Shown: positions 4,930 through 12,002 of the stretch, one piece after another
Layout of the letters: every line of letters begins with the position of its first letter
How positions within the stretch are numbered: the first letter of the stretch is position 1
DNA from: Propionibacteriaceae bacterium
GTDB taxonomy: Bacteria; Actinomycetota; Actinomycetes; Propionibacteriales; Propionibacteriaceae
Direction of reading: 5' to 3'
Length of the DNA stretch: 12,002 bases
Assembly (NCBI GenBank): GCA_030538175.1
Contig: JAUNUL010000057.1
Coordinates: forward strand, 1-12,002
Notes under the pieces: model-generated
The model's input: only the letters and a program-made list of their open reading frames with translations
The model's database searches: none
What the model was told of the DNA's origin: nothing
Made by a program: the position numbers and the translations under genes

Positions 4930-5364
4930 TCAGCCGCGCATCATGCTGCGCCAAGGGCGACGCAGCTGATAGCGGCGACCGGTGACCTCGGCGGGCCGAA
5001 TAGCGACCAACACGGGCCGGTCATGGCCGAGCCAGGCGCGCAGGCCCACCTGCTCGATGCGGTATTCCTCATCAGCGGACAACACATGCGCCTCACCGCG
5101 CACCACAACGCTCACACCGACCTCGTCGGCGTCGTCGACCTCATCGACCTCAAAGGCCACGCGCGGATCGGCGATGATGTTGTGGAGCTTGGTGCCGTCG
5201 GTGGTGCGGAAGACGAGCTGATCACCATCGACGACATAGTTGATCGGCGCAATCGATGGCGCACCCTCGATGACATAGGCGAGGCGACCGAATTCACGGG
5301 ATCGCAGGACCGCCCAGCAGTCCTCGGTGGACAACACGCCCTGTTCGGTGGACGTTTCGTCCAT
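4930..5364 (-). CDS. Pyridoxamine 5'-phosphate oxidase-like / NimA-type flavin-binding protein
   Basis: A 144-residue protein of the split-barrel flavin-binding superfamily (PNPOx-like, including NimA-type and F420-binding members). The pattern FGRLAYVIEGAPSIAPINYVVDGDQLVFRTTDGTKLH is characteristic: a first strand, the P-x-I-x-P-x-N-Y turn, then an F-R-T-x-x-G-x-K-L strand that normally contacts the flavin phosphate. The middle is acidic (EVDEVDDADEVG). The start is the ATG at 5364, because AGGAGGGG sits immediately upstream; an in-frame ATG at 5391 would add nine Ala/Gly-rich residues without a comparable site. Members bind FMN, FAD, F420 or haem and reduce varied substrates, so neither cofactor nor substrate can be assigned. 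It is convergent with fdhD and divergent from the penicillin-binding lipoproteins. Confidence 0.85.
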   Translation of the reverse strand: MDETSTEQGVLSTEDCWAVLRSREFGRLAYVIEGAPSIAPINYVVDGDQLVFRTTDGTKLHNIIADPRVAFEVDEVDDADEVGVSVVVRGEAHVLSADEEYRIEQVGLRAWLGHDRPVLVAIRPAEVTGRRYQLRRPWRSMMRG

Positions 5365-5551
5365 GACCCCTCCTGCGACTGCGGCGCTCATTCTCCAACC
5401 CTAGACGCGCGGGCTCGCGGCGCCCGCATCGCGAACCGGTGACCGGCACGCCACCGCACCTTAACCCGCACCGGGATGGCCGCACGCCCCCGGGCACGCG
5501 TGATGCCCACAGTGTTGTTGGATCGTTGCTCCCCGGCCCGCGTGTCGCGAT

Positions 5552-5607: not shown

Positions 5608-7440
5608 GTGCGACTACGGCGATCCGTGGCTGGCCTGCTGGGGTTGGCGCTCGTGGCTGGCTGTGCCGGTGATCCGGCACCCGAGGAGCCGGTGGGCCCA
5701 CAGGAAACTGCGGACGCGGTGGCTGCGGCCCTGTCCAAAGGCTCGGTCGAGGGCATCAAGATCCACGAGGGCAACCCCAAGGAAGAGCTCCCCGAGTTGC
5801 TCAAGGGCATGAACGGGATGCTGCCGGAAGTCACCGTGGGCCACATCTCCCCATCCGCCCAAGCGGCCTCCATCAAGCTCGACTACCGCTGGCCTCTGTC
5901 CTCCCCGTGGACCTATCAGACCGATGCCACGCTGGTGAAGAAGGGCGACGACTGGGAGCTGACCTGGTCACCGGAGGTCCTGCACCCCAAGCTCACCGCG
6001 GAAACCCGCCTCGAACGCCAGCGCGGGGACGCGACGGAGCGGGGCAACATCACCGGCGAGGGCAGCGCCGTGTTGGTCGAGAACATCCCGGTGCAGATGT
6101 TGGGGCTCGACAAGGCCGGGCTCGCACCGGAGGAGGTCGAGGAATCCGCGCGCAAGGTGGCGGAGAAGGCCGAGATCGATCCGAACGCGTTCGTGGCCAA
6201 GGCACAGGCGGCGGGGGCACAAGCCTTCGTCGACGCCAAGGCTGTGCGCCAGGAGAACCTGCCTGCTGACTTCCTCGCCATCAAGGGTGCGGCGCTGCGC
6301 ACCGTGACCATGCCCGCTCCCCCCACGACCGGTTATGCCCAGGCACTGCTGGGCACCACCGGTTATGCCACCGAGGAGCAGGTCAAGCCCGGCTCGGACT
6401 TGGCCGTCGGTGAGTTGGTCGGGGTGAGCGGCCTGCAGCAGACCTATGACAAGGACTTGCGCGGCAGCACGGGCAACAAGGTCTTCCTCGCCAAGCGGGA
6501 GGATCCGGTCGGTTCCGGTCGCCCGACCAACGCGACGTTGCTCGCCGACTTCCCGGATTCGCCCGGCAAATCACTCGCCACGACCGTCAATGACGACGTC
6601 CAGACCGCGGCGGAGTCCGCGCTGAAGGGCTTGAAGACCCCGGCATCGGTCGTGGTGATCCGGGTGGAGAACGGCGCCATCCTCGCGGCGGCGGATTCAG
6701 GCGCGGCCCGGCACACCGACGCATCGATGACTGGTCGGTTCGCGCCCGGGCTGGCCGCATCCCCGGTGACCGCACTGGCGCTGTTGCGTTCGGGGGTTGA
6801 CCTCAGCCAGACCGTGCAGTGCGAGAAGCAGGTGACGGTCGGGGGCGCCACGATCGAGAACGACAAGAACTATGCCGGCAGCACCGGCCAGATCACTCTG
6901 GCCCGTGCGTTGAGCGACCAGTGCCTCACCGCAGTGGCGCAGGCTGCCCAGCAACTCGACGCGGGCAAGCTGCCGGAGGCCGCGAAGTCCCTCGGGCTGG
7001 GCCAGGACCTCGACATCGGTGTCCCCAACGCCATGGGCACGTTCCCGGCCCCGGCCGATGATCGGGCCAAGGCCGAGGCACTCACGGGCCTCGGGTCCGG
7101 CGGGGGCCTCCAGGCGTCCACGGTGGCCCTGGCCACGATGGCCGCCTCCGTGCAGGCGAAGCAGGTCGTGTCGCCGTTCGTCGTGCCGGGTCGGGAACCC
7201 AAGATCGAGGGCGCTGCGCCGCTGAGCGATGCTGAGGCCAAGGCCCTGTCCGACATGTTGCGGGCCCGGGCCAGTTCCTATCGTCCGCTGACCTCGGTCG
7301 CCGCCGGGCAGGCCGACGGCCGGCAGTGGGCGGTGGGTTCCACGAGCAAGTACGCGATCGCCGTCGTGATCGCCGACGAACCCAAGGCCTCCACCACCCC
7401 CGCACAGCTCGTGCGGACCGTGGCCAACGCGGTGGACTGA
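5608..7440 (+). CDS. Catalytically dead penicillin-binding lipoprotein (pseudo-transpeptidase)
   Basis: A 610-residue lipoprotein with the layout of a class B penicillin-binding protein: lipobox VAGC with C19 as the lipidated residue, a MecA_N/NTF2-like domain (about 25-140), a dimerisation region with VGVSGLQQTYDKDLRGSTG, and a transpeptidase-like domain (about 340-610). It aligns along its length with the next gene, but every catalytic motif is gone. SxxK (PGSTFKPVTALAL in the neighbour) is here PGLAASPVTALAL, so Ser is L382 and Lys is S385. SxN is QCL (438-440). KTG is ADG (569-571). It cannot acylate a peptide stem or a beta-lactam in the usual way. The frame is full length with no stop, so it looks maintained rather than decayed. 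The start is GTG 5608, because GGAGGGAGA lies just upstream and a clean signal peptide follows. The stop is 6 nt before the active paralogue. Confidence 0.9.
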   Translation: MRLRRSVAGLLGLALVAGCAGDPAPEEPVGPQETADAVAAALSKGSVEGIKIHEGNPKEELPELLKGMNGMLPEVTVGHISPSAQAASIKLDYRWPLSSPWTYQTDATLVKKGDDWELTWSPEVLHPKLTAETRLERQRGDATERGNITGEGSAVLVENIPVQMLGLDKAGLAPEEVEESARKVAEKAEIDPNAFVAKAQAAGAQAFVDAKAVRQENLPADFLAIKGAALRTVTMPAPPTTGYAQALLGTTGYATEEQVKPGSDLAVGELVGVSGLQQTYDKDLRGSTGNKVFLAKREDPVGSGRPTNATLLADFPDSPGKSLATTVNDDVQTAAESALKGLKTPASVVVIRVENGAILAAADSGAARHTDASMTGRFAPGLAASPVTALALLRSGVDLSQTVQCEKQVTVGGATIENDKNYAGSTGQITLARALSDQCLTAVAQAAQQLDAGKLPEAAKSLGLGQDLDIGVPNAMGTFPAPADDRAKAEALTGLGSGGGLQASTVALATMAASVQAKQVVSPFVVPGREPKIEGAAPLSDAEAKALSDMLRARASSYRPLTSVAAGQADGRQWAVGSTSKYAIAVVIADEPKASTTPAQLVRTVANAVD

Positions 7441-7446
7441 GACCCC

Positions 7447-9408
7447 GTGGCTCGGCCGACGCGGGCCCGCGTACGCCTCGTGGGCGGCGTCACCGCCGCG
7501 ATTCTGTTGGTGACCGCCTGTGGCGGGCGTACGCCGGCCCCACCAGAGCCGGACGACCCCGTCGGGGCCGCGGACCGACTGGTGGCTGCCCTATCGGCCG
7601 GGGATGTGCGCGGCATCCCGGCCACTGCCGACATGCAGACCGAGCTCAACGAGATCCTCGCCGGCATGGACGGGATCCGACCGACCGTCACCCACGGTGA
7701 GGTGCGGCGGACCGGCAATGCGGCGGAAGTGCCGCTGACCTATGTCTGGCCGTTCGCGGCGGCGCGCTGGGAGTACACGTCGACGGGCACGCTCATGTGG
7801 TCCGGCACCGAGTGGCGGGTCGACTGGCTGGCCGGGATGATTCACCCCGAGTTGACCTCCCAGACCCGCCTGGTGCACACCTCACGGGCGGCCGACCGGG
7901 GCAAGATCCTCAACGGTGCCGGGGCCAAGCTGACCGACGACGTCGTGGTCATTCGGTTCGGCCTGGACAAGTCCCTCCTCGGTGAGGACGAGTGGGAGGG
8001 CGCGGCGCGGCGGATCGCCGAAAAGTTCGGTGTGAACGCGGACCGGTTCGCGGCGCGGGTCCAGGCCTATGGACCCCTCGCCTTCGTCGAAGCCATCGCC
8101 CTGCGTCACGATGCCGAGCATCCGGACGGCTGGGAAACCCTGCCGGGCGTCGCGGGTTTGACGTCGACCCGGTCATTGCCGGTCGATCGGGATTTTGCTC
8201 CCGAGCTGCTCGGCACCGTGGGACCCGCGACAGCCGAACAGGCGCAGGCGGCTGGGCCACCGGTGCTGGCGGGCGACCCGATCGGCATCAGCGGGCTGCA
8301 GCGGCGACAGGACCCGGTCCTGCGGGGCAAGTCCGGGGCCGTGGTGCAGCTTGCCCCGCGTCGCACCAGACCGGCCGCGGAGCCAGCCGATCCGTCCGCG
8401 TCCCCCACCGCATCCGCGACCACCGCGCCCAGCACCACCTCGGCGGCCACCCCGATCCCGCGGAAGCTGTTGTTCGAGGCAACGGCGCTGCCGGGGCAGG
8501 ATCTGCGGACGACCCTCGATTCGGCATTGCAGCTGAACGCGGAACGGACCCTGGCCGACGTGACCGGGTCCGCGGCGCTCGTGGCGGTCCGGCCCAGCGA
8601 TGGAGCGATCCTGGCCGCGGCGGTCTCCCCGGGCAGCGGGGTGGACCCCCACGCGACGTTCGGACATTTCCCGCCGGGGTCCACGTTCAAGCCGGTTACC
8701 GCGCTGGCCCTGATGCGGGCCGGGCTCACCGCCGATTCGCTGGTCGAGTGCGCGCCGTCGGTGACGGTGGGTGGGCGTACGTTCACCAACTACAGCGGCT
8801 ATCCGGCCTCCGGTCAGGGACGCATCACGCTGCGGGAGGCGATCGCGCGGTCATGCAACACCGCGCTGATCGCTGAGCATGCCCGGATCACCCCGGCAGA
8901 TCTTCAGCGCGCCGCAGCGAGCCTCGGGCTGGGTCAGGACTATGAGGCCGGCTTCTCCTCCTTCTTCGCCACGGTGCCCGAGCCCGACCCCGCGAACCCG
9001 ACCGTCGGCTTTGCGGAGAATCTGATCGGCCAGGGACGGATCGAGGCGTCGCCCATGGCGATGGCGGGCGTGGCCGCGTCCGTCTCGGCGGGCCGGACCG
9101 TCGTGCCCCGGCTATTGGAGGGGTACGCCCCACCCGATCCCGCCACTCCCCTGTCCAGTGCGGAAGCCGCCGCACTGCGGTCGATGATGGCCGCGACGGT
9201 GACCTCCGGCACCGCGGACGACTTGCGCGGTCTCCTGCAGGGGGCAAAGACGGGGACTGCCGAATTCGGCACCGACACCCCACCGCGGACCCATGCCTGG
9301 TTGATTGTGTATGCCGATGATCTGGCCGTGGCCGTGTGGGTCCACGACGGGACGTCCGGCTCGGGAACCGCAGCACCCCTGATGAGGGCTTTCCTGACCG
9401 GCCGGTAA
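7447..9408 (+). CDS. Penicillin-binding lipoprotein, active D,D-transpeptidase (class B PBP)
   Basis: A 653-residue cell-wall transpeptidase expected to crosslink peptidoglycan stems on the outer face of the membrane, anchored by a lipid on C25 (lipobox VTAC). In order: MecA_N/NTF2-like domain, PBP dimerisation region with IGISGLQRRQDPVLRG, a Ser/Thr/Pro/Ala-rich linker at about 307-338, and the transpeptidase domain from about 350. All catalytic motifs are intact: S412-T-F-K415 (SxxK), S469-C-N471 (SxN) and K601-T-G603 (KTG, followed by TAEF). It resembles the mycobacterial penicillin-binding lipoprotein Rv2864c in layout. The start is GTG 7447, with GGTGGA at 7431-7436 overlapping the end of the preceding gene, so the two are co-transcribed and probably translationally coupled. 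The linker is absent from the paralogue and could be glycosylated, which is a guess from its composition. Confidence 0.92.
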   Translation: MARPTRARVRLVGGVTAAILLVTACGGRTPAPPEPDDPVGAADRLVAALSAGDVRGIPATADMQTELNEILAGMDGIRPTVTHGEVRRTGNAAEVPLTYVWPFAAARWEYTSTGTLMWSGTEWRVDWLAGMIHPELTSQTRLVHTSRAADRGKILNGAGAKLTDDVVVIRFGLDKSLLGEDEWEGAARRIAEKFGVNADRFAARVQAYGPLAFVEAIALRHDAEHPDGWETLPGVAGLTSTRSLPVDRDFAPELLGTVGPATAEQAQAAGPPVLAGDPIGISGLQRRQDPVLRGKSGAVVQLAPRRTRPAAEPADPSASPTASATTAPSTTSAATPIPRKLLFEATALPGQDLRTTLDSALQLNAERTLADVTGSAALVAVRPSDGAILAAAVSPGSGVDPHATFGHFPPGSTFKPVTALALMRAGLTADSLVECAPSVTVGGRTFTNYSGYPASGQGRITLREAIARSCNTALIAEHARITPADLQRAAASLGLGQDYEAGFSSFFATVPEPDPANPTVGFAENLIGQGRIEASPMAMAGVAASVSAGRTVVPRLLEGYAPPDPATPLSSAEAAALRSMMAATVTSGTADDLRGLLQGAKTGTAEFGTDTPPRTHAWLIVYADDLAVAVWVHDGTSGSGTAAPLMRAFLTGR

Positions 9409-9806: not shown

Positions 9807-10421
9807 ATGGCCCGCGGAGTCACGCCCGTCACCCCCACCGATGGCCTGACCACCCGACAGCGCCGCCACCAGCCCCTGGTCGTTGTGCATACCGGCCCCG
9901 GCAAGGGCAAGTCGACGGCCGCGTTCGGGCTCGCGCTGCGGGGCTGGAATCAGGGCTGGTCAATCGGGATTTTCCAGTTCGTGAAATCCGCAAAATGGAA
10001 AATCGGCGAACAAGCCGCACTGGAGGCACTCGGCAAGGTCCACGCAGACACCGGTGCCGGCGGACCCGTCGAATGGCACAAGATGGGCGCTGGCTGGTCC
10101 TGGTCCCGCAAGTCCGGCAGCGAGGAGGACCATGCGGCCCAAGCCGCTGAGGGCTGGGCCGAGGTCCGGCGCCGGTTGGCCGAGGAGACCCACACCGTCT
10201 ATGTGCTCGACGAGTTCACCTACCCGTTGAAGTGGGGCTGGATCGATGTCGAGGAGGTCGTGACCACTCTGACCGAACGGCCCGGCTATCAACACGTCAT
10301 CATCACCGGTCGGGACTGTGACCCCAGGATCATCGAGATCGCCGACCTCGTCACCGAGATGACCAAGATCAAGCACCCCTTCGATCAGGGGCGTCCGGGC
10401 CAGAAGGGCATCGAGTGGTAG
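9807..10421 (+). CDS. cobO: CobO, cob(I)yrinic acid a,c-diamide adenosyltransferase
   Basis: A 204-residue cytoplasmic ATP:corrinoid adenosyltransferase of the CobA/CobO/BtuR family, which transfers the 5'-deoxyadenosyl group of ATP to the reduced cobalt of a corrinoid. The P-loop GPGKGKST is at residues 30-37, using the family's specialised glycine/lysine spacing; VLDEFTYPL with D135 and E136 supplies the Walker-B-like acidic pair; HVIITGR follows; and the C-terminal HPFDQGRPGQKGIEW matches the family's closing signature. Length is typical. The start is the ATG at 9807, with GAGGAG at a 7-nt spacing. Its TAG stop overlaps the start of cobC by 7 nt, making this the first gene of a coupled cobalamin operon. 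Confidence 0.96.
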   Translation: MARGVTPVTPTDGLTTRQRRHQPLVVVHTGPGKGKSTAAFGLALRGWNQGWSIGIFQFVKSAKWKIGEQAALEALGKVHADTGAGGPVEWHKMGAGWSWSRKSGSEEDHAAQAAEGWAEVRRRLAEETHTVYVLDEFTYPLKWGWIDVEEVVTTLTERPGYQHVIITGRDCDPRIIEIADLVTEMTKIKHPFDQGRPGQKGIEW

Positions 10422-11434
10422 GGCCGGATCTCACCTTCCACGGTGACCGTGAGCTTGATGGAAGCTTGGTGGACCTCGCGGTCAACGTGCGTCTGCGGAC
10501 GCCACCTCCGTGGCTTGCCACCGTGCTCATCGAGGAGATCGGCCGCCTCGGTGATTATCCCGACCCGACCGCTGCGACGGCTGCAATCGCCGCACACCAC
10601 GACGTGGATCCGGTGATGGTCCTGCCGACTGCTGGCGGCGCGGAAGCGTTCACCCTCCTGGCGAGGGCGGGCCTGGGGGTCCGTCCGCTGATCATCCACC
10701 CGCAGTTCACCGAGCCGGAGGCCGCGTTGCTGGCGGCCGGCAGCCAGCCAGAGCGCTGGATCCTCCCACCCGAGTCCGGTTTCGCCCTCGATCCGGCGGC
10801 CGTGCCCACTGGTCCGGATCTCGTCGTGGTCGGCAATCCGACGAACCCCACCGGGGTGCTGCACCGGGCGGTTGATCTGCTCACGCTGGCCCATCCGGAC
10901 CGGACGCTGGTGGTCGACGAGGCCTTCATGGACGCTGTGCCCGGGGAGTCGGAGTCGCTGATCTCACCAACCATGCCTGGCATGTTGGTGCTGAGGTCCC
11001 TCACCAAGACCTGGGGGCTGGCCGGGCTGCGGGCCGGCTATGTCATCGGCGATCCGGGCCTCGTCGCAAGGTTGCGGGATCAGCAGCCGCCTTGGTCGGT
11101 GTCGGCCCTCGCCCTGGCCGCGATGGTCGCCATCTGCACCCCACGCGGTGCGGCGGAGGCACAGGCCGCCGCGGAACAGTACGCAACGGACCGCGCCCAC
11201 CTTGTCACCGGTCTGACCCGGCTTGGCCTGCCCGTCATCGCATCGCAGGCCCCCTTCGTGCTCGTCCGCGCCTGGGCGGGCGCCCGGGCAGCGTTGCGGG
11301 AACGGGGGTACGCGGTCCGGCGCGGGGAGACTTTTCCTGGGCTGGGACCCGAGTGGATCCGCATCGCCGTCCGGGACACGGTGACAAGTGATGCGTTCCT
11401 CGCCGCGCTCGCCGACGCGATGGACCACCGATGA
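10415..11434 (+). CDS. cobC: CobC/CobD-like PLP enzyme (threonine-phosphate decarboxylase type)
   Basis: A 339-residue fold-type I PLP enzyme of the histidinol-phosphate-aminotransferase-like group, which in cobalamin operons makes the (R)-1-amino-2-propanol-phosphate linker from threonine phosphate or serves the equivalent CobC role. It begins with the family's FHGD motif, has VVGNPTNPTG, LVVDEAFMD (D168) and the Schiff-base lysine K198 in RSLTKTWGLAGLRAGY. The start is GTG 10415, with AGAAGG 7 nt upstream inside the end of cobO; the 7-nt overlap implies translational coupling. The mycobacterial counterpart is Rv2231c. Without the cob setting it could be read as a HisC homologue; the HGD start and the cobO/cobS neighbours favour CobC. 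Confidence 0.88.
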   Translation: MVGPDLTFHGDRELDGSLVDLAVNVRLRTPPPWLATVLIEEIGRLGDYPDPTAATAAIAAHHDVDPVMVLPTAGGAEAFTLLARAGLGVRPLIIHPQFTEPEAALLAAGSQPERWILPPESGFALDPAAVPTGPDLVVVGNPTNPTGVLHRAVDLLTLAHPDRTLVVDEAFMDAVPGESESLISPTMPGMLVLRSLTKTWGLAGLRAGYVIGDPGLVARLRDQQPPWSVSALALAAMVAICTPRGAAEAQAAAEQYATDRAHLVTGLTRLGLPVIASQAPFVLVRAWAGARAALRERGYAVRRGETFPGLGPEWIRIAVRDTVTSDAFLAALADAMDHR

Positions 11435-11496
11435 CCCCCGTGAGGGACGTACGCCGCGTCGGGGCCGTGCGCCGCGTGCGCCTGGGCCGACCATGA
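11431..11496 (+). CDS. 21-residue Arg-rich mini-ORF bridging cobC and cobS
   Basis: An ATG at 11431 overlaps the cobC TGA (ATGA), and this frame ends at a TGA (11494-11496) that overlaps the cobS ATG (again ATGA). The predicted peptide has 21 residues, seven of them Arg, and contains a hexapeptide-scale duplication, VRRVGA then VRRVRL, from an 18-bp repeat (GTACGCCGCGT at 11449, GTGCGCCGCGT at 11467). cobS lacks a clear Shine-Dalgarno, so this ORF could carry ribosomes from cobC into cobS. A peptide function is not supported, and it may simply be spacer DNA with fortunate overlaps. Confidence 0.4.
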   Translation: MTPVRDVRRVGAVRRVRLGRP

Positions 11497-12002
11497 GCCT
11501 GCGTTCCGGGTGGCGGTTGGCGATCGGCACCCTGACTATCCTGCCCAGCGGCCCTGTCGATCCGTCGGCTTCGGCCGCGCGGTGGTTGGTTGCCCTCGCC
11601 CCGATCGCAGTCCTCCCCCTCGCTGTCGGAGCAGCAGCCGTCAGCGCGGCCGGAACAGTTGTCGGCGCACCAGGACTGGTGACCGGGCTGCTTGTCGTCG
11701 GTCTGTTGGCGATCCTGACCCGGGGCATGCATCTCGACGCCGTGGCCGATGTCGCCGACGGCACAGGCGCGGGCTGGGATCCCGAGCGGGCGCGGGCGGT
11801 GATGAAGCGCGGTGACATCGGGCCGATGGGTGTCATCGCTCTCATCGTCGTCCTCGGCCTGCAGGCGGCTTCGATCGCCGCCGTCACGGCAACTCCGAAC
11901 GGATGGCTGCTGATCGGCATCGTCGTGGCGGCGAGCCGGTGGCTGCTGGCGCCGGTGTGTGCCGGAGTGCCCGCGATGCCCGGTTCTTCGCTGGGCGCGG
12001 TC
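11493..12002 (+). CDS. cobS: CobS, adenosylcobinamide-GDP ribazoletransferase (5' part, cut by window edge)
   Basis: The first 170 codons of an integral-membrane cobalamin synthase that joins adenosylcobinamide-GDP to alpha-ribazole (or its phosphate), the last assembly step. Recognisable features are the N-terminal WRLAIGTLTILP, the catalytic-loop motif RGMHLDAVADVADG (family form GGLHLDGLADTADG), and the following ERARAVMKRGDIGPMGVIAL. Several hydrophobic membrane segments surround the motif. The frame is open to the last base, so the gene continues beyond the window; the family is usually about 250 residues. The start is ATG 11493: no in-frame ATG, GTG or TTG lies between here and the end of cobC. 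There is no good ribosome-binding site, so coupling to the mini-ORF is plausible. Confidence 0.9.
   Translation, partial: MSLRSGWRLAIGTLTILPSGPVDPSASAARWLVALAPIAVLPLAVGAAAVSAAGTVVGAPGLVTGLLVVGLLAILTRGMHLDAVADVADGTGAGWDPERARAVMKRGDIGPMGVIALIVVLGLQAASIAAVTATPNGWLLIGIVVAASRWLLAPVCAGVPAMPGSSLGAV

Follow-up and report, generated by a model that had tools for sequence, protein, structure and literature searches.

A lipoprotein class B penicillin-binding protein paralogue without catalytic motifs in Propionibacteriaceae

How far class B penicillin-binding proteins (PBPs) work through their chemistry, and how far as scaffolds, has so far been probed with artificial serine mutants. Here we describe what may be a natural counterpart. 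In a 12,002-nucleotide stretch of a Propionibacteriaceae genome (the window: contig stretch 1-12002 of genome G000, a fragmented metagenome-assembled genome (MAG) of 3.2 Mb in 553 contigs, 88% complete), a full-length class B PBP paralogue that has lost all three catalytic motifs (gene 1, the "dead" copy) is followed directly by a motif-complete paralogue (gene 2, the "active" copy).

Among described systems, a possible functional model for gene 1 is the S309A mutant of Bacillus subtilis PBP 2B, for which the relevant passages of PMC5656894 describe a catalysis-independent structural role and report that PBP 3 becomes essential. That protein is, however, a laboratory mutant of a divisome PBP, whereas gene 1 is a natural, fixed paralogue. 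PBP-lipo (MAB_3167c / Rv2864c), presented in PMC9170245 as a mycobacterial class B PBP and hypothetical lipoprotein that is septal in Mycobacterium abscessus, resembles gene 1, as far as its description goes, in being an actinobacterial class B PBP, a lipoprotein and the bearer of a transpeptidase domain. It differs in that its catalytic serine is required: according to the same source it binds bocillin FL, and a mutant in the predicted catalytic serine fails to rescue growth of M. abscessus, whereas gene 1 is motif-free. The best whole-protein matches to gene 1 in both sequence and fold are Staphylococcus aureus PBP2a, B. subtilis PBP3 and Enterococcus PBP4 and PBP5, titled as penicillin-binding enzymes, and gene 1 is without the catalytic residues of those proteins. 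As far as their descriptions go, the Clostridioides difficile pseudoproteases CspC and CspA are likewise naturally inactive and kept for regulation, but belong to an unrelated family and process, and the tables of PMC6273383 list missing motifs of beta-lactamases. Among the titles and abstract openings listed by searches of an open-access library, none described a natural pseudo class B PBP beside, or outliving, an active twin. By those searches, what appears to be new here is the existence of natural pseudo class B PBPs, the kinds of domain themselves being already known.

Loss of the catalytic motifs in gene 1

Gene 1 (protein P0001, 610 amino acids; positions 5608..7440, + strand) and gene 2 (P0002, 653 amino acids; 7447..9408, + strand) share one domain order, an NTF2-like MecA_N domain, a PBP_dimer pedestal and a Transpeptidase domain that in gene 1 is degenerate. 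All three domains score above their Pfam cut-offs in both genes (for gene 1, PF05223 gives 23.3 bits against a cut-off of 22, and PF03717 46.1 bits against 24.4), and gene 1 has the transpeptidase fold expected of a MecA_N-subtype class B PBP. The frames are uninterrupted over 610 and 653 codons, the gene 1 stop ends at 7440 and gene 2 begins with a GTG at 7447, leaving a gap of 6 nt, and the two proteins are 38% identical in a pairwise alignment. Read by eye, the lipoboxes are VAGC in gene 1 and VTAC in gene 2; the lipobox cysteine of gene 1, C19 (5662..5664, + strand), lies in a nearly invariant column of alignment A3 (52 rows, without P0003, P0045, P0046, P0048-P0051, P0054 and P0055). A preliminary description of this DNA, made from its letters, had proposed two full-length paralogues 6 nt apart with a common domain order and lipoboxes, and its coordinates, strand and frames were all confirmed.

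In gene 2 the three motifs, all on the + strand, are STFK (residues 412-415; 8680..8691), SCN (469-471; 8851..8859) and KTG (601-603; 9247..9255). At the aligned positions, on the same strand, gene 1 has LAAS for SxxK (382-385; 6751..6762), QCL for SxN (438-440; 6919..6927), in which Cys439 is kept, and AAG for KTG (565-567; 7300..7308). The alignment upholds the earlier reading of the three gene 2 motifs and of LAAS and QCL. At the third site the loss of the lysine stands, but the proposed replacement, ADG (569-571), does not: it is AAG, four residues upstream, that aligns with KTG in the pairwise alignment and in A3, and although two quick alignments place ADG there, the lysine is absent either way.

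Loss of the motifs extends to the relatives of gene 1. Of 85 rows tallied, in which some proteins are present twice from two sources and a motif was scored only with both of its end residues, 56 have all three motifs and 29 have none; in one motif reading, 8 rows whose active gene runs off the fetched stretch scored 110. The preliminary description had anticipated that the first gene would lack SxxK, SxN and KTG in related genomes, and in 24 dead rows both catalytic lysines (SxxK and KTG) and the SxN serine are lost in every case, while the SxxK serine is lost in 23 (Leu in 20, Ala in 2, Met in 1) and kept in 1. The dead protein of genome G022 retains the SxN asparagine (GCN). P0031, a dead-clade protein of 527 amino acids, keeps the nucleophile serine (SAGG) with both lysines gone, possibly a trace of the order of loss. 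Other residues mark the dead proteins: Leu382 occurs in 20/24 rows, Arg572 (7321..7323, + strand), a signature of the dead clade, in 23/24 with histidine at that position in 31/31 active rows, and in a 22-row dead set Pro380 and Gly381 are present in 22/22 and Pro386 in 21/22. Among the 24 dead rows no lysine in the transpeptidase domain reaches 85% conservation, and no clade-specific substitute for the Ser/Lys pair was found in that domain. Judged from these alignments, acylation at the usual serine is excluded for 23 of the 24 dead proteins, gene 1 among them. By the same evidence gene 1 is homologous to the MecA_N-type class B PBPs yet is no member of the functional family, because none of its three defining motifs (SxxK, SxN, KTG) is present.

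The AlphaFold models of both proteins are confident (predicted local distance difference test, pLDDT, 91.1 for gene 1 and 90.8 for gene 2). In that of gene 1 the fold is retained with the helix of the former active site in place, and the strand pair after the third site turns more tightly (563-569/572-578) than in gene 2 (599-607/614-623). Two cysteines, Cys405 and Cys439, never vary, whether in dead (24/24) or in active (31/31) rows. Their codons lie at 6820-6822 and 6922-6924 in gene 1, those of the corresponding Cys435 and Cys470 of gene 2 at 8749-8751 and 8854-8856; Cys470 sits within SxN, and the pair may form a disulphide next to the active site that outlasted the loss of catalysis.

Distribution, origin and selection of the dead form

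The dead gene is present in 7 of 198 family genomes, with an intact, open frame in all seven. Strains with the dead form are Enemella evansiae, E. dayhoffiae, Granulicoccus phenolivorans, Propioniferax innocua and Ammonicoccus fulvus, and relatives occur in a MAG labelled Propionibacterium sp. (contigs) and in Mariniluteicoccus flavus (protein records). Because named strains of Enemella, Granulicoccus, Propioniferax and Ammonicoccus share the same state, it is no assembly error. A profile of seven dead proteins, run against the 198 genomes at E 1e-40, matched in 136 and gave no match at that threshold in 62. Scores are 855-989 bits in seven genomes and at most 483 elsewhere, the profile's own seven rows being top by construction; since the profile was built from those seven, and since dead P0031 (424 bits) scores below active P0027 (485), this gap is no proof that there are only seven carriers. 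When the motifs were read in all 136 matching genomes, 7 held the first dead clade, 5 a second kind considered below and 123, in the sequence that was read, only proteins with all three motifs; the remaining genome, G028, is incomplete and scored 110, an RTGT string lying close to a cut end. A profile search of a large protein set at 1e-80, which scored 7999 candidates sharing most words, returned at least 53 proteins, all of them already in the first search, the Granulicoccus and Propioniferax proteins being unnamed among the matches listed.

In trees made by quick searches with no bootstrap, a branch with a support of 100 in the Shimodaira-Hasegawa-like approximate likelihood ratio test (SH-aLRT) separates 23 dead rows from all others. 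The main tree is without P0003, P0004, P0009, P0017, P0019 and P0021 (duplicates or fragments) and the G062 and G076 loci; P0058-P0062 were left out of the domain-wise trees, the approximately unbiased (p-AU) test and the tree of genus g17. The same branch is recovered on pedestal-only and on transpeptidase-only columns (support 99 and 99), so the grouping is no artefact of shared motif loss. On these trees the dead form is a single Propionibacteriaceae clade with one origin. The test does not reject a clade that unites the dead proteins with their genomes' own active copies (p-AU 0.33), a result that would allow a single tandem duplication in an ancestor common to the carriers. The MecA_N-type PBP has also been duplicated without death, since genome G026 holds two motif-complete copies on separate contigs (L045 8711-10714, L046 7812-9683).

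If gene 1 had been kept as the partner of gene 2, as the preliminary description supposed, the two would be expected to travel together. They do not always do so: the active twin is found in five of the seven carriers, adjacent to the dead gene in four, on another contig in one (G013) and absent from two (G001 and G022), while the dead gene is intact in all seven, and neither the conservation of the pair as neighbours nor obligate partnership with the neighbouring gene is borne out. In the adjacent pairs the genes are 6 nt apart in the window and 1 nt apart in G003, and overlap by 1 nt in G002 and in G004, figures that rest on start codons chosen to fit the lipobox. In G013 (Granulicoccus) the dead gene lies beside a PPOX-family gene and the active one beside cobO-cobC; in G001 the dead gene is followed by an opposite-strand winged-helix-type open reading frame (ORF) and then cobO, and in G022 (Propioniferax innocua) by a permease-like ORF and then cobO. 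These ORFs were identified by eye from their translations, the former being response-regulator-like (L038 1945-2418; the latter at L044 10363-11772). With gene 2 as query, no active MecA_N-type PBP was found in G001 or G022, both of which retain PbpB-, PbpA- and class A-type proteins (types assigned from size and match strength). Among the sampled relatives in the main tree, G001 holds the dead protein closest to that of the window; because the window keeps gene 2 despite this and G022 is a separate lineage, the simplest account of the gene content would be that the active copy was lost twice, in the G001 and G022 lineages. In genomes that have both genes, joint translation is probable and cooperation possible, but the function of gene 1 would not depend on gene 2.

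The dead gene also behaves as a selected one. Ratios of non-synonymous to synonymous divergence (dN/dS; Nei-Gojobori with codon bootstrap, 95% limits) over the whole dead gene are 0.27 (0.21-0.33) for window-G001, 0.42 (0.34-0.52) for G002-G004 and 0.36 (0.29-0.44) for window-G003, against 0.33 (0.25-0.41) and 0.26 (0.20-0.33) for the active gene in the latter two pairs, and the GC fractions of gene 1 by codon position (0.69/0.51/0.87) are those of a working gene. The sequence comparison agrees on both counts with the preliminary description, which had named a dN/dS below 1 as a check, the upper limits in these three near pairs being 0.33, 0.52 and 0.44, and had argued for a full-length pseudoenzyme under selection, as the open frames in 7/7 carriers also support; we conclude from it that the dead gene is under purifying selection. 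Among the window, G002, G003 and G004, identity in the PBP_dimer domain is higher in the dead than in the active gene in 6/6 pairs, and identity in the transpeptidase domain is lower in 6/6. Columns conserved at 90% or more make up 0.29, 0.32 and 0.26 of the NTF2-like, pedestal and transpeptidase regions in 22 dead rows, versus 0.09, 0.24 and 0.36 in 24 active rows (P0057-P0062 omitted), where only the ratios within each set are informative because the dead set is less diverse. By these measures constraint in the first dead clade has shifted away from the transpeptidase domain and towards the PBP_dimer pedestal; judged by dN/dS, the transpeptidase domain nevertheless stays constrained.

A second loss of catalysis and the role of the dead proteins

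A gutted-transpeptidase protein, the second kind mentioned above, occurs in five of six genomes of genus g17 (G020, G042, G073, G086 and G206; loci L213-L216, L236, L237 and L239-L241). In these proteins residues such as PDDFAPV or PKSFPPV stand where SxxK used to be, a deletion covers the part through SxN, and KTG has gone. In P0063 (G020) Pfam finds PBP_dimer at 42.0 bits and Transpeptidase at 13.5 bits, under the cut-off of 22.1; it does not find MecA_N, but the N-terminal region still aligns with genes 1 and 2. In the sixth genome, G059, the protein is motif-complete; the five dead proteins group with it (support 100) and form a clade of their own (99) apart from the first dead clade. This well-supported separation requires at least two changes of state, and the loss of catalysis in g17 is, on the tree, independent of that in the first dead clade. 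No active MecA_N-type PBP was found in any of the five carriers, whose PF00905 matches fall into the PbpB, PbpA and class A types (again by size and strength). Between them dN/dS is 0.28-0.49 for the pedestal and 0.43-0.82 for the remnant, lower for the pedestal in 10/10 pairs; the upper limits for the pedestal are all at most 0.67, and for the remnant two of the intervals extend to 1.00 or beyond. None of the other window genes was found within the 6.7-16 kb around the g17 loci.

What, then, would a PBP without its chemistry be kept for? The account we consider probable is that gene 1 is a lipid-anchored pseudo-transpeptidase which lost its chemistry and was kept for peptidoglycan synthesis as a non-catalytic scaffold or regulator. 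On this view, a class B PBP paralogue with a single origin in a subset of Propionibacteriaceae would have lost acyl transfer and been retained for a non-catalytic job, its NTF2-like/PBP_dimer pedestal would dock other PBPs or divisome or elongasome proteins, and its transpeptidase domain would persist as a folded module on which beta-lactam acylation at the usual serine is impossible. That gene 1 is a selected pseudoenzyme is well supported; the step from there to a scaffold or regulator is where we infer, and is the weak link of the argument. Because the protein is lipid-anchored, selected and motif-free and outlasts the loss of its twin, it most likely works by binding, and two lines of sequence evidence, the shift of constraint in the first clade and the keeping of the pedestal with a gutted transpeptidase in g17, suggest the pedestal as the surface through which it works. 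Of the three roles put forward in the preliminary description, a scaffold is the best fit and an allosteric subunit serving gene 2 alone the poorest. More tentatively, and with the balance somewhat against it, one may suppose that structural and catalytic jobs of class B PBPs were separated at least twice in Propionibacteriaceae, the pseudo-PBPs, out of reach of ordinary beta-lactam acylation, having taken over the assembly or regulation of a wall-synthesis complex to such a degree that the catalytic form could be dispensed with and was lost.

Several observations weigh against this account. Synonymous sites are strongly diverged even in the near pairs (proportion of synonymous differences, pS, 0.39-0.58), which makes the dN/dS ratios rough, and farther pairs of dead genes are near saturation, with whole-gene values of up to 1.12 on which we do not rely. 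The dN/dS intervals of pedestal and transpeptidase domain in gene 1 overlap, their order is reversed in window-G003 (0.40 against 0.32), and the NTF2-like domain breaks the trend, with higher identity in the dead gene in only 2/6 pairs. The absence of gene 2 from G001 rests on one MAG, listed as 99% complete, and the listed completeness is 84-89% for three of the five g17 carriers. By eye, the g17 proteins appear to be anchored by a membrane helix and not by a lipid, and with this membrane-spanning look they need not share the job of gene 1. No extra SEDS protein marks the carriers, since each of 12 genomes holds two. Finally, the PBP-lipo serine mutant, as described in PMC9170245, means that lipoprotein class B PBPs do not as a rule have a purely structural role.

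Other explanations would use the emptied pocket or the neighbouring gene. The strongest of them, though improbable, is that gene 1 senses peptidoglycan, its emptied pocket or a lobe of its pedestal binding stem peptide or nascent glycan non-covalently and reporting the status of the wall. The kept fold, with the former active-site helix in place in the model, and the residues conserved specifically in the dead clade at the former site (L382, P386, R572) would suit such a role, as would the PBP2a match 3zg5_A, whose entry title describes a complex in which a peptidoglycan analogue occupies an allosteric site. But the replacement residues are mostly small or hydrophobic, Pfam finds no signalling domain, and in g17 it is the pocket region that is mostly deleted and the pedestal that is kept, making a sensor or stem-peptide binder less general. 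Less probable again is that gene 1 forms an obligate heterodimer with gene 2, serving in it as an allosteric or stabilising subunit: close adjacency in 4/7 carriers (a gap of 6 or 1 nt, or a 1-nt stop/start overlap) and a well conserved PBP_dimer region speak for it, but gene 2 is missing from G001 and G022 where gene 1 is intact, the genes are on different contigs in Granulicoccus, and the g17 proteins have no active MecA_N-type partner. As a general rule obligate pairing is ruled out by the absence of the active copy from G001 and G022.

We give little credence to a hidden enzyme with a different nucleophile and a new or residual activity. The transpeptidase domain is still constrained, Cys439, Thr441 and Ser504 are conserved in the dead clade and P0031 keeps its serine (SAGG), but the domain has no conserved lysine in that clade, and Cys405, Cys439, Thr441 and Ser504 are equally conserved in active copies and are for that reason more likely structural. 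Still less can be said for a decaying duplicate or an assembly artefact. The window does come from a MAG in 553 contigs, 88% complete, but the frame is open in 7/7 carriers, several of them named strains, the dN/dS intervals lie below 1 in three near pairs, the GC by codon position is that of a working gene, and the dead gene is retained where the active copy was lost. A pseudogene or MAG artefact is effectively refuted by the open frames in 7/7 and the near-pair dN/dS below 1.

If the structural and catalytic jobs did come apart at least twice in Propionibacteriaceae, this would be a natural counterpart of the laboratory serine mutants that separate PBP scaffolding from catalysis. Selected natural pseudo-PBPs of two origins, in relatives with and without an active copy, open the balance of chemistry and scaffolding to genetic tests. 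There is also a caution for annotation: P0009 and P0019 are named "penicillin-binding transpeptidase domain-containing protein" and would presumably be counted as beta-lactam targets despite the lost serine.

The locus and its neighbours

The order of genes in the window is aminotransferase, fdhD, PPOX, dead gene 1, active gene 2, cobO and cobC, and the window genome has seven PF00905 places in total. The PPOX-family gene (4930..5391, - strand) lies upstream of the dead gene in six of the seven carriers (window, G001, G003, G004, G013 and G022) and was undetected in the fetched stretch of G002. The downstream marker is cobO (9807..10421, + strand), which comes soon after gene 2 in the window and in G013, about 4.3 kb past gene 2 in G003, and, in the two carriers that lack gene 2 (G001, G022), downstream of the dead gene; it was not found within the 18-19 kb stretches examined for G002 and G004. 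After the PBP pair the window holds, at 9807-12002, cobO, a cobC-like aminotransferase and the start of a putative cobS, which is cut by the contig end. At its other end (20-2490, - strand) a fatty acid desaturase adjoins a 2Fe-2S/FAD oxidoreductase (both by Pfam), likely an electron-transfer pair.

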